Assembly: GCA_001789445.1 (NCBI GenBank)
Contig: MFZQ01000025.1
Span: forward strand, 1-37,986
Direction: 5' to 3'
Length of the DNA: 37,986 bases
From: Candidatus Roizmanbacteria bacterium RIFCSPHIGHO2_02_FULL_40_13b
Lineage (GTDB): Bacteria > Patescibacteriota > Microgenomatia > UBA1406 > HO2-37-13b
The notes beneath the pieces are model-generated. The model was not told the DNA's origin. It worked only from the letters and a program-made list of their open reading frames with translations, and searched no databases. The position numbers were made by a program, and so were the translations under genes. The number at the start of each line of letters is the position of its first letter. The stretch's first letter is position 1. Below are positions 6,028 through 34,527 of this stretch, in pieces.

Positions 6028-6423
6028 TTATAAGTCTTCTTCTGTGCCAATGATTTCAGTCTCTGCGTACTGGTTAAATCGATATCCAAAACGTGGTTTT
6101 GATAATAAATAAATTGGATTATGTGGATCCGGTTCAATCTTCATCCTAATTGAGCGAATATTGACAGCTAATAGGTTCGTACCTAACGAAACCCCCCAAA
6201 TTCTTGTTTCTAAATCATCCGTTGAATGCCAGTGAATTAAATCATCGATCAATGTTTGTAGAATTCTAGATTGAGTTGGACTTAATTCTGTTTCACCTCT
6301 CTCATCCTTCCATACCATCAATCCCCATTCAGGAATAAATGCTTCGAGGCACGAAAGCGGTGAAAATCTTATAATTCCACTATCCGAACATTCTTCTTGT
6401 CCAGTACTCAATCTTTCAGGCAT
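6028..6423 (-). CDS. winged-helix DNA-binding protein, OmpR/PhoB C-terminal type, without a receiver domain
   Basis: LSPTQSRILQTLIDDL...VSLGTNLLAVNIRSIRMKIEPDPHNPIYLLSKPRFGYRF matches the Trans_reg_C pattern. Confidence 0.75.
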   Translation of the reverse strand: MPERLSTGQEECSDSGIIRFSPLSCLEAFIPEWGLMVWKDERGETELSPTQSRILQTLIDDLIHWHSTDDLETRIWGVSLGTNLLAVNIRSIRMKIEPDPHNPIYLLSKPRFGYRFNQYAETEIIGTEEDL

Positions 6424-6465: not shown

Positions 6466-6541
6466 TGGTGACCCCGAGGGGGATCGAACCCCTGATTCCC
6501 AGGATGAAAACCTGGTGTCCTAACCGCTAGACGACGGGGCC
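6466..6541 (-). tRNA. tRNA-Glu(TTC) with encoded CCA
   Basis: Minus strand: GGCCCCGTCGTCTAGCGGTTAGGACACCAGGTTTTCATCCTGGGAATCAGGGGTTCGATCCCCCTCGGGGTCACCA. Cloverleaf closes; anticodon TTC. Confidence 0.95.
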
Positions 6542-6553
6542 AATGTTAATTGG

Positions 6554-6796
6554 CTATTTATTGAACAACTTTTCTAGTCGTTCTCTCTTTTTCCACGATT
6601 TCAGGTAGGTTTCTCTCGATCGGGCTTCTCCTAAAGTTTCAAATTTCTCTTCGAGAACTAGAGCCCAAGGTCGATACTTTCTTGTAAATTTACTTGTTCC
6701 TTTATTGTGTTCTTTAAGCCTTCTATCAATATTACTTGTACATCCTATGTAATAAGTTCCATTGATGCTTGACTTTAGTATATATGTAAAATACAT
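6554..6796 (-). CDS. small GIY-YIG nuclease-domain protein (YhbQ/UPF0213-like)
   Basis: MYFTYILKSSINGTYYIGCTSNIDRRLKEHNKG...LVLEEKFETLGEARSRETYLKSWKKRERLEKLF is the classic small GIY-YIG pattern. Confidence 0.93.
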   Translation of the reverse strand: MYFTYILKSSINGTYYIGCTSNIDRRLKEHNKGTSKFTRKYRPWALVLEEKFETLGEARSRETYLKSWKKRERLEKLFNK

Positions 6797-6801
6797 AATG
6801 C

Positions 6802-6894
6802 ACCGCTAGATTCCGTCCTGTCCCGCTCATATGTATCGCGGACGAGGACGAGGACTCTCGGTCCGACCGAATCGGACCGGAGCGACGGGGCCAA
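6802..6894 (-). repeat. partial tRNA-Glu 5' copy interrupted by a 72-bp palindromic insert
   Basis: Plus strand: accgctaga (6802-6810), 72 bp (6811-6882), cgacggggccaa (6883-6894). The joined 21 nt equals 6523-6543 of the intact tRNA-Glu region. The insert contains ggtccga/tcggacc and an imperfect cgtcctgtcccgc/gcggacgaggacg inverted repeat. Confidence 0.85.
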
Positions 6895-6962
6895 GATACT
6901 TATATTTTATCACAAAACAATACCTTCTGCCAATACAGAAGATATTGTTTGCTTTACTTTAC

Positions 6963-7613
6963 CTAGACTTTTCTTCGTAAATCTTCCAAAATATCCTTTG
7001 CCAAGTCTTTTCCCCCCATTCCAAATGCAAGCCCTCCTGCAATTGCAAGCATCGCTACAATTCCGGTGAATAGAATTCGAACCAGATCTTGAGCAATTCC
7101 CAATTGATTAAGTACAATGAGTATGGTAAAGAAAATAATTGCGTATCTTGCCAATGTTGAAAGTGCATTTGAGCTTTTAGCGCCCATTGTACGAACGCTC
7201 TGACGTACAATATCACTTGCAAGATTTGCAAATATGATTCCAACAAACCCAATTACTACGGCTACAAGCACATTAGGTATATAGAATAGTAATTGCCTTA
7301 AAACTACGGTGACTTGGGAAAGTCCCCATACTTCAGCCGCTGGGATGAGGAAAAGAATAACCGTTGCCCAGCTTACGAGCTCAATGATGATTTCCTCCCA
7401 AATTTTTACTTCACCAGGACGTGCAAATTTTGTCTTTGAAATAAGCACTCCGATCTTAAAGAAATCAAAAAAAGAAATAAGCAATTTTCGGACAATTTGT
7501 GACAAAACAAGTCCGATTGCAAGAATGAGTAGGCCACCTAAAAAACTTGGTAAAAATAAGCTTGTACTTCGGGCGAACGTTGAAATGATTGGATTAATCG
7601 TATCAAATATCAT
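6963..7613 (-). CDS. mechanosensitive-channel-like membrane protein (conserved TM-helix repeat)
   Basis: Multiple TM segments with LFTGIVAMLAIAGGLAFGMGGKDLAKDILEDLRRK; start placed at MIFDTINPI (7613). Confidence 0.7.
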   Translation of the reverse strand: MIFDTINPIISTFARSTSLFLPSFLGGLLILAIGLVLSQIVRKLLISFFDFFKIGVLISKTKFARPGEVKIWEEIIIELVSWATVILFLIPAAEVWGLSQVTVVLRQLLFYIPNVLVAVVIGFVGIIFANLASDIVRQSVRTMGAKSSNALSTLARYAIIFFTILIVLNQLGIAQDLVRILFTGIVAMLAIAGGLAFGMGGKDLAKDILEDLRRKV

Positions 7614-7632
7614 ATATTTCACCCCCTCTCTA

Positions 7633-7986
7633 CTAACTGGTAACATTTTCAAAATGTTGTAGTTTTGTAATCGACATATCAGCATTATACTCTATAGAAA
7701 TCACGTCAATACGCAATTTTTGCGAAGTAATGGTATGCAACTTTGAATAGAGCAAAGCTCCCAATTTAATATGTGAGATTTTTCGATAGTTGACAGCTTC
7801 ATAAGGTTTTCCCATTCTATCACCAATACGAGCTTTCACCTCTACAAAAATATATGTATTATCTTTCTTGGCTATGATATCAATTTCAGCAGCACGAGAC
7901 CTGAAGTTTCGTTGCAGTATTGAATAGTGTTTCTTACGAAGATAATTATACGCATCTGTTTCTCCCTGCTTTCCAACAGTATTCAC
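7633..7986 (-). CDS. UPF0102/YraN family endonuclease-like protein
   Basis: GKQGETDAYNYLRKKHYSILQRNFRSRAAEIDIIAKKDNTYIFVEVKAR. A GTG start at 7986 (VNTVGKQGE) avoids the ~100 bp overlap with rplS seen in the 7633..8094 ORF. Confidence 0.82.
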   Translation of the reverse strand: MNTVGKQGETDAYNYLRKKHYSILQRNFRSRAAEIDIIAKKDNTYIFVEVKARIGDRMGKPYEAVNYRKISHIKLGALLYSKLHTITSQKLRIDVISIEYNADMSITKLQHFENVTS

Positions 7987-16775: not shown

Positions 16776-16906
16776 GTGTCATTCTTAACGTAGCATCTGT
16801 CATCCCCGACTTGATCGGGAATCTATTCAACTAGATTCCCGCCTCCGCGGGAATGACACCAGGATCCTATCCCTACGTCCTGCAGACTCCGGTCCAGGAT
16901 GACAGG
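16776..16906. repeat. composite intergenic palindromic repeat between atpD and atpC
   Basis: Contains tgtcatccccgacttgatcgggaatct, agattcccgcctccgcgggaatgaca and gatcctatccctacgtcctgcagactccggtccaggatgacag; near-copies at 36890-37003, 18295-18319 and 29898-29922. Confidence 0.85.
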
Positions 16907-31559: not shown

Positions 31560-31582
31560 CTCGCTAATATATATTCTCAAAT

Positions 31583-31652
31583 CGGAAGGTCGAGGGCCGA
31601 GCGTAAGCGAGGTCCCAGCGAAGCGCGGGATTCGAGTCCGGTTGGTCCCGCT
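31583..31652 (+). repeat. partial tRNA-Asp 3' copy interrupted by a 38-nt GC-rich segment
   Basis: cggaaggtcg (31583-31592), 38 nt, ttcgagtccggttggtcccgct (31631-31652); the intact tRNA has cggaaggtcg-ccgg-ttcgagtccggttggccccgct. Followed by a T-run. Confidence 0.85.
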
Positions 31653-32926: not shown

Positions 32927-33036
32927 CTGAAGGCACTGGCGGGCAGTCAAGGATGAGCGCGGGATCCGATTCCCCTCACCCGCTCATCCGCCTTACGGGC
33001 GAGATGAGCGAGGCTCGACGAAAGTCGGCCCGGTCA

Positions 33037-34419: not shown

Positions 34420-34487
34420 ATTAAGATAAAAACCGTGATAAATTCAAGTAGGAATGTTGTATAATTTAATGCGGAGTTGCCGATGTA

Positions 34488-34507
34488 CCTGCCTGCCGGC
34501 AGGCAGG
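34488..34507. repeat. perfect 20-bp palindrome CCTGCCTGCCGGCAGGCAGG (copy 1)
   Basis: Identical to 35876-35895. Confidence 0.95.
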
Positions 34508-34527
34508 GCTCAGTTCGACTGGACCTA

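Follow-up and report, generated by a model that had tools for sequence, protein, structure and literature searches.

A probable homing-type mobile micro-element with a minimal GIY-YIG nuclease and a double hairpin at a bacterial tRNA-Glu gene

Introduction

How does a small nuclease gene come to lie between an intact tRNA-Glu gene and a broken copy of the 5' end of the same tRNA? The question is raised by a locus of Candidatus Roizmanbacteria bacterium RIFCSPHIGHO2_02_FULL_40_13b (contig MFZQ01000025.1; the whole stretch of 37,986 nucleotides that was analysed is called the window). tRNA genes are known landing sites of large integrating elements, which use integrases; the elements described here have a length of a few hundred bases, encode an 80-aa nuclease and occupy nearly every tRNA type as well as tmRNA. 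An earlier note on the window held that a nuclease-bearing cassette had entered the 5' end of tRNA-Glu and regenerated it, a reading that empty sites in relatives and recurrence elsewhere support. We consider it probable that a mobile micro-element of the homing type lives at this locus as a parasite of the tRNA gene, which is its target, and that it consists of a minimal GIY-YIG nuclease and a double hairpin. This reading rests on comparison between genomes, which shows that the element is inserted where relatives have empty sites, that the arrangement recurs, that targets are mostly kept, that one element has used two RNA genes, and that the ORF is under selection.

Organization of the tRNA-Glu locus

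The locus and its flanks comprise the following features.

6028..6423, minus strand: winged-helix Trans_reg_C protein gene (PF00486), downstream flank, outside the element
6466..6541, minus strand: intact tRNA-Glu (TTC), downstream of the ORF (tRNA gene search)
6554..6796, minus strand: GIY-YIG nuclease ORF, 80 aa, catalytic domain only (Pfam PF01541, E 8e-18)
6802..6810, minus strand: broken tRNA-Glu copy, piece 2, TCTAGCGGT, tRNA positions 11-19
6811..6882, minus strand: double-hairpin insert, 72 bp (by folding; architecture common to other tRNA-Glu elements)
6883..6894, minus strand: broken tRNA-Glu copy, piece 1, TTGGCCCCGTCG, 2 leader bases and tRNA positions 1-10
6904..6933, minus strand: promoter-like site TTGGCA-18-TAAAAT with extended -10 (10/12 matches; 1 site found versus 1.2 expected by chance)
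6963..7685, minus strand: MS-channel-like membrane protein gene (PF05552), upstream flank, synteny anchor for empty sites

Read along the minus strand, the locus thus consists of the promoter-like box, TTGGCCCCGTCG, the 72-bp insert, TCTAGCGGT, the GIY-YIG ORF, 12 bases and tRNA-Glu. This layout had been described correctly to the base in the earlier note, except that the gap between TCTAGCGGT and the ATG (6796) is five bases (GCATT) and not six; its assignment of the small ORF to GIY-YIG agrees with the Pfam match. Removal of the 72 bp restores the 21-nt tRNA-Glu 5' end, as had been proposed: the 12-mer and the 9-mer join without mismatch to give two leader bases and tRNA-Glu positions 1 to 19. 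The 12-mer is repeated exactly in the split copy and the intact tRNA-Glu, and GGCCCCGTCG occurs just twice in the whole genome, both times at the 12-mer repeat sites of this locus. By our estimate, two adjoining pieces of one tRNA, a 12-mer and a 9-mer, would occur in the right order within ~100 bp with a chance of about 1e-9, and a chance origin of the split layout is dismissed because the same kind of split recurs at other tRNA genes. The left and right tRNA-Glu copies are identical, and a foreign origin of the right copy, expected from the parallel with fungal mitochondria, is therefore without support.

The only promoter-like match at the locus ends 9 bp ahead of the split tRNA-Glu copy, and relatives have a box of similar kind immediately 5' of the intact tRNA-Glu. 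The site is presumably the original tRNA-Glu promoter, consistent with the earlier suggestion that this promoter stayed with the interrupted copy.

Empty sites in relatives

The order of MS-channel gene and tRNA-Glu is kept in 22 relatives, and comparison of these loci, which the earlier note had recommended as a search for empty sites, found the GIY-YIG gene absent in 19 and present in 3. The occupied loci are those of the own genome, G010 and G034, and all three have a split tRNA copy of their own. In G010 the element is of another GIY-YIG lineage, and a separate double hairpin interrupts its broken tRNA-Glu copy. At empty loci the MS-channel gene and the tRNA are 4-209 bp apart, except in G023, where an unrelated ORF lies in a gap of 666 bp. 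At two empty loci, G006 and G028, short hairpins with tRNA-Glu-like letters lie 5' of the tRNA; these loci may be ORF-less relics.

Recurrence beside tRNA and tmRNA genes

The own genome (858 kb in 32 contigs, ~90% complete, 39 tRNA genes) has 11 GIY-YIG matches, ten of which are small ORFs, and five of these ten adjoin tRNA-Glu, tRNA-Pro, tRNA-Tyr, tRNA-His or tmRNA. A second independent case is found at its tRNA-Pro (L010), with ACGGGGTGTAGT, two perfect hairpins, ATAGCGGTAGAA, the ORF and an intact tRNA-Pro.

For a wider survey we used 119 GIY-YIG genes, namely those that match the window protein in 38 genomes (E ≤1e-8) together with the small family matches of the own genome; the set is centred on the window protein and is not a random GIY-YIG sample. 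A same-strand tRNA or tmRNA lies within 200-250 bp of 67 of the 119 genes and an opposite-strand one near none (0/119), with 1.4 neighbours expected per strand (40 such genes in 858 kb; binomial P 8e-97). The count of 67 is a lower bound, as the finder overlooked the tmRNA beside L147. At 44 loci (class D) the tRNA begins directly after the ORF, at 32 (class U) a tRNA or tmRNA end is followed by hairpins and then by the ORF start, and 9 loci fall into both classes. About half of the small GIY-YIG genes are not linked to a tRNA, and most of these form a separate clade, a point that weighs against the homing-type reading.

The recurrence for which the earlier note had called was readily found: the ORF is paired with a broken tRNA at Glu, Pro, Tyr, Ser, Lys, Val, His, Gly, Phe, Gln, Asn, Met and other tRNA genes, and in other phyla as well. 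A scan with the single window protein recovered the split-copy arrangement in named hosts such as WOR-1 (L154, whose genome is titled as curated and complete), Uhrbacteria (L155) and Kaiserbacteria (L161, with a tRNA copy split at two places). Chance adjacency or an assembly artefact might be suspected, since many of the genomes are fragmented drafts; however, the adjacency is far beyond expectation, and the arrangement is not an assembly artefact because it is present in a genome labelled complete (L154) and in the single-contig genomes G019 and G021. This explanation is already refuted by recurrence, and we give it virtually no weight.

Structure of the broken tRNA copies

Among class D loci with no other tRNA upstream, 26/33 have at least 17 nt of their own tRNA 5' end upstream of the ORF. 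The same score was reached by 1/59 control tRNA genes, and this one (L180) is a GIY-YIG locus overlooked by the filter. Removal of the hairpins gives a tRNA 5' end free of gaps and mismatches at ten loci (L002, L010, L017, L018, L020, L028, L037, L089, L100, L103). The hairpins mostly lie in the D-arm of the split copies; in L043, L081, L023, L029, L099 and L129 the leftover copy is longer, and they stand in place of its anticodon arm or its T arm. A mirror form, in which an intact tRNA is followed by the ORF and then by a 3' copy with a hairpin, is found in Ignavibacteria (L157) and Melioribacter (L163). After class U ORFs, copies of tRNA 3' ends are mostly at chance level, the exceptions being L138 and possibly L008 and L112.

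The GIY-YIG protein

The window protein has 80 residues in one domain, with an alignment-based structure model at pLDDT 92 (a single-sequence AlphaFold model gave pLDDT 48). The model is closest in fold to UPF0213 proteins, then to Slx1 and then to the I-TevI catalytic domain. UPF0213/YhbQ proteins are known as stand-alone proteins and not as tRNA-gene elements. They are also the closest solved relatives by sequence (PDB 1ywl, E 2e-9; PDB 1zg2, E 3e-7). Residues Y5, Y16, G18, R26 and E62 are invariant across 24 homologs, and dN/dS between homolog pairs is 0.07-0.24, so the protein is under purifying selection and in use. Matches to homing endonuclease profiles of PHROG (E 1e-6) are confined to the catalytic part. 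No phage protein with >40% identity to the window ORF is among the matches listed, and a scan of viral contigs with this ORF as query returned no relative. The single-domain protein has no DNA-binding domain, and such a bare catalytic domain leaves specificity as the main question, namely how it would recognise one tRNA gene.

Other kinds of element were considered and dropped. An Rfam scan at gathering thresholds of L002 and nine other loci matched only tRNA and tmRNA and no intron family, which led us to reject both a group I intron with an endonuclease and a riboregulator known to Rfam. REP/RAYT was dropped as the ORF is GIY-YIG and not the Y1 transposase TnpA_REP, and no further ORF of ≥60 aa lies between the flanking genes.

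Target fidelity and movement

In a tree of the 119 proteins, class D loci require 24 changes of tRNA type, compared with 34.5 for shuffled labels (minimum 30 in 300 shuffles), while host genome labels carry no signal (35 changes, 36.0 when shuffled); the tree is built on only 85 columns and leaves many forks open. In a search of 281 genomes of the same taxonomic class, homologs of the window ORF with at least 54% identity are all at tRNA-Glu, and below 54% the targets are mixed. Fidelity is not complete, since L154, which is 57% identical, lies at tRNA-Pro, and a second GIY-YIG lineage is also found at tRNA-Glu. These patterns suggest that a given lineage of the GIY-YIG protein mostly keeps to a single tRNA family.

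One element has also used different RNA genes. L116 (tRNA-Ala) and L147 (tmRNA) of one genome, and L153 (tmRNA) of a related genome, have a common hairpin leader and ORF, while their host genes are unlike except for a common T-arm and ...TCCACC end, which locates the left end of the element. Together, the loci combine a nuclease domain with conserved motifs, targets occupied in some genomes with ORF-less relatives, and a target that is kept, though not absolutely, across hosts. The comparative evidence indicates that the elements are mobile, and we infer that their movement is homing-like.

The ORF could instead be a resident gene of a tRNA operon, acting in processing or regulation, beside a partial tRNA that is a decayed tandem duplicate. 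Its proximity to the tRNA on the same strand and the purifying selection on the ORFs fit such a role. A resident gene is nonetheless extremely unlikely, given that the ORF is missing from 19 syntenic relatives, that targets vary within one genome, that the tree tracks target and not host, and that one element occurs at both tRNA-Ala and tmRNA.

The double hairpins

Folding of the 72-bp insert gives two hairpins, in agreement with the two inverted repeats seen earlier, with no unpaired base at the 5' end and two at the 3' end. Hairpin 1 (~6882-6855) has a 1-nt bulge and hairpin 2 spans ~6851-6813. A scan of the own genome found no second copy of the insert, which is therefore not a dispersed repeat there. 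The 100-nt leader of the window ORF folds with z -2.6 relative to shuffles, and median leader z is -2.2 in class D, -2.3 in class U and -0.15 in controls (P 1e-12). We used folding z-scores in place of a longest-perfect-stem statistic, which gave a weak signal.

Inserts of the tRNA-Glu family nearly always have two hairpins, located at position 11|12 or 18|19, and frequently have a one-base bulge in hairpin 1. Many have the common motifs T[C/G]CCGA...GAG[G/C]ATCCTCG...CGGGA, with stems that differ. Changes on both sides were found in 6/17 stem pairs of a five-sequence alignment, the test being confined to five sequences because MAFFT misplaced the stems of divergent hairpins. Across several tRNA families, all 18 folded inserts (hand-chosen examples) have exactly two hairpin domains with 0-3 unpaired end bases; in these chosen cases the hairpins are adjacent and their ends precise, as in double-hairpin elements. 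The tmRNA of L153 holds a 30-bp double hairpin TCCACCACAGGTGGATCAGCCTTTGGCTGA that the same-genus tmRNA of L147 does not have. Double-hairpin units thus appear to insert without the rest of the element as well.

Such observations raise the alternative that the double hairpins are themselves the primary mobile units, similar to REP or double-hairpin elements, and that a Slx1-like GIY-YIG protein acts on hairpins or cruciforms; tRNA genes would be favoured since their folded strands offer loops into which hairpins can insert, and since a redundant copy can bear such an insertion. Slx1, a branched-DNA nuclease, is the nearest solved fold after UPF0213; exactly two hairpins abut the cut tRNA, also in other loops (two sites in L161, the anticodon loop in L177); the two same-genus tmRNA loci differ by the 30-bp unit; and the non-tRNA GIY-YIG genes L003 and L006 are bordered by inverted GTCATTCCCGCG palindromes. 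However, hairpins as the primary units leave unexplained why protein lineages track tRNA type and why orientation is strictly same-strand, and we regard this alternative as unlikely.

The structured leader, with its tRNA-derived sequence, might also be a small RNA by which the GIY-YIG protein is guided or licensed, like the HEARO/omega RNA upstream of IscB. It lies directly 5' of the ORF and is abutted by tRNA sequence, its architecture is common to tRNA-Glu elements, in which some stem pairs have changed on both sides, and the protein has no DNA-binding domain. A guide RNA is nevertheless very improbable, as hairpin sequences are very unlike between target families and thus offer no common scaffold, Rfam matches in the ten loci are tRNA and tmRNA only, and the covariation set is five sequences. 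A further proposal, which we hold to be unlikely, is that the linked double hairpin, either as folded DNA or as RNA with tRNA-derived sequence, gives the bare GIY-YIG protein its specificity for tRNA genes. If true, the elements would form a widespread class of bacterial mobile elements, so far undescribed, with targeting directed by nucleic-acid structure or RNA.

Proposed mechanism

For a homing-type element, which we favour, the GIY-YIG protein would cut a cassette-free tRNA gene and recombinational repair would then copy the cassette into the cut gene. Insertion would yield one complete tRNA gene (in the window, 3' of the ORF) and one partial, hairpin-interrupted copy, and the host would survive because one complete tRNA remains. 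The hairpins may disable the redundant copy as a substrate for self-cleavage or for deletion by recombination between tRNA copies; alternatively, they may mark the element for the nuclease. The old tRNA promoter would read through the hairpins and the ORF into the tRNA, as may be suspected from the one promoter-like site, which precedes the broken copy.

Relation to known systems

According to PMC13096335 (citing Brok-Volchanskaya 2008), SegB of phages T4/T6 is a free-standing GIY-YIG homing endonuclease of tRNA regions. Its gene adjoins tRNA genes of many isotypes, the enzyme cuts within tRNA genes, its spread is recombination-driven, and the segB 3' end and the tRNA 5' end have microhomology (PMC13096335). 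By our own reading, the SegB motif RAWTSGAAC given there is in reverse complement the tRNA T-arm GTTCSAWTY. As far as this description goes, the likeness is that of a GIY-YIG nuclease gene at tRNA genes; in contrast to SegB, the window element encodes an 80-aa protein of the catalytic domain only, resides on a bacterial chromosome inside a tRNA gene, and has a hairpin-split copy.

Fungal mitochondria have mobile ORFs (mORFs) with duplicated gene ends, in Allomyces atp6 and in Glomus atp6, atp9, cox2 and nad3 (PMC3630166). There too an endonuclease ORF lies in an essential gene, with the complete gene regenerated and a fragment left (PMC3630166). The fungal mORFs occupy protein-coding genes at the C-terminal end and bring a foreign replacement copy (PMC3630166), whereas the bacterial elements are in tRNA genes, usually at the 5' end, with near-identical copies and hairpins in the leftover. 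Leftover and intact tRNA copies are both present in the window, and being identical they give no origin for the intact 5' end.

The double-hairpin elements of Allomyces mitochondria are insertions proposed to be mobile (Paquin 2000, cited in PMC5910586 and PMC4478555), and cryptophyte mitochondria are described as having tRNAs with palindromes (PMC5910586 / PMC4478555). So far as they are described, the Allomyces elements resemble the window hairpins in architecture. We know of no case in bacteria where double hairpins of this type are coupled with a nuclease ORF or with duplicated tRNAs.

In rRNA genes of the Candidate Phyla Radiation (CPR), some insertion sequences that contain neither a group I nor a group II intron code for GIY-YIG proteins, and the survey reporting them judged these ORFs to be outside a homing context (PMC11270868). 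Their host gene is rRNA, in contrast to tRNA for the window element, and the text of PMC11270868 mentions neither tRNA nor hairpins. One Patescibacteria paper merely lists GIY-YIG among transferred genes. By analogy the window element would work like SegB and the fungal mORFs, yet it is assigned to none of the systems compared. A search of the literature other than subscription journals and preprints found no description of this class of tRNA-gene elements, and no paper joining GIY-YIG with tRNA genes and the CPR or with UPF0213.

A homing-type element at tRNA genes would join SegB, fungal mORFs and double-hairpin elements into one testable scheme, and would explain the abundance of small GIY-YIG genes in these reduced genomes and the broken copies beside tRNA genes. 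It would also matter for gene-finding programs, where these put ORFs up against tRNA genes or inside them.

Additional observations

At L010, L016, L030 and L104 the ORF stop codon lies within the tRNA gene, and tRNA sequence thus encodes the final nuclease residues. The tRNA-Glu of L020 (G004) is flanked on both sides, by a split-copy GIY-YIG gene before it and a second GIY-YIG ORF soon after its 3' end. L177 has a tandem array in which tRNA-Glu positions 1 to ~38, a double hairpin located in the anticodon loop, and a GIY-YIG start occur again after the ORF. The tmRNA-linked leaders of L009, L142, L145 and L151 (four genomes) have a common structured stretch, ACACTTCGC ... GCGAAGTGT with GTCCC..CGTAGCT.., that ends near GAAGTGGG.

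Elsewhere in the window, tRNA-Asp is followed (31561-31651) by a short frame YILKS, resembling a GIY-YIG start, and then by a tRNA-Asp 3'-end copy, GGAAGGTCG ... TTCGAGTCCGGTTGGTCCCGC, broken by a 38-nt hairpin insert; this is apparently a decayed mirror-type element. A perfect palindrome CCTGCCTGCCGGCAGGCAGG lies 5' of tRNA-Thr (34479-34522) between GCCGATGTA and GCTCAGTT, like an ORF-less split tRNA 5' end; in L089, from another genome, this palindrome also interrupts the tRNA-Asn copy. Located 3' of tRNA-Gly(CCC) (32968-32985), GATTCCCCTCACCCGCTC resembles the 3' end of a different tRNA-Gly and is near GC-rich hairpins.

Two near-identical GIY-YIG ORFs of the own genome (L003 1400-1830 and L006 1450-1830, ORF forward; 92% nt identity) have inverted GTCATTCCCGCGAAGGCGGGAATCC palindromes on both sides and unrelated outer flanks; judged by these borders, they are a third class, not associated with tRNA. 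Similar palindromes are found in the window near 16836, 29900 and 36901.
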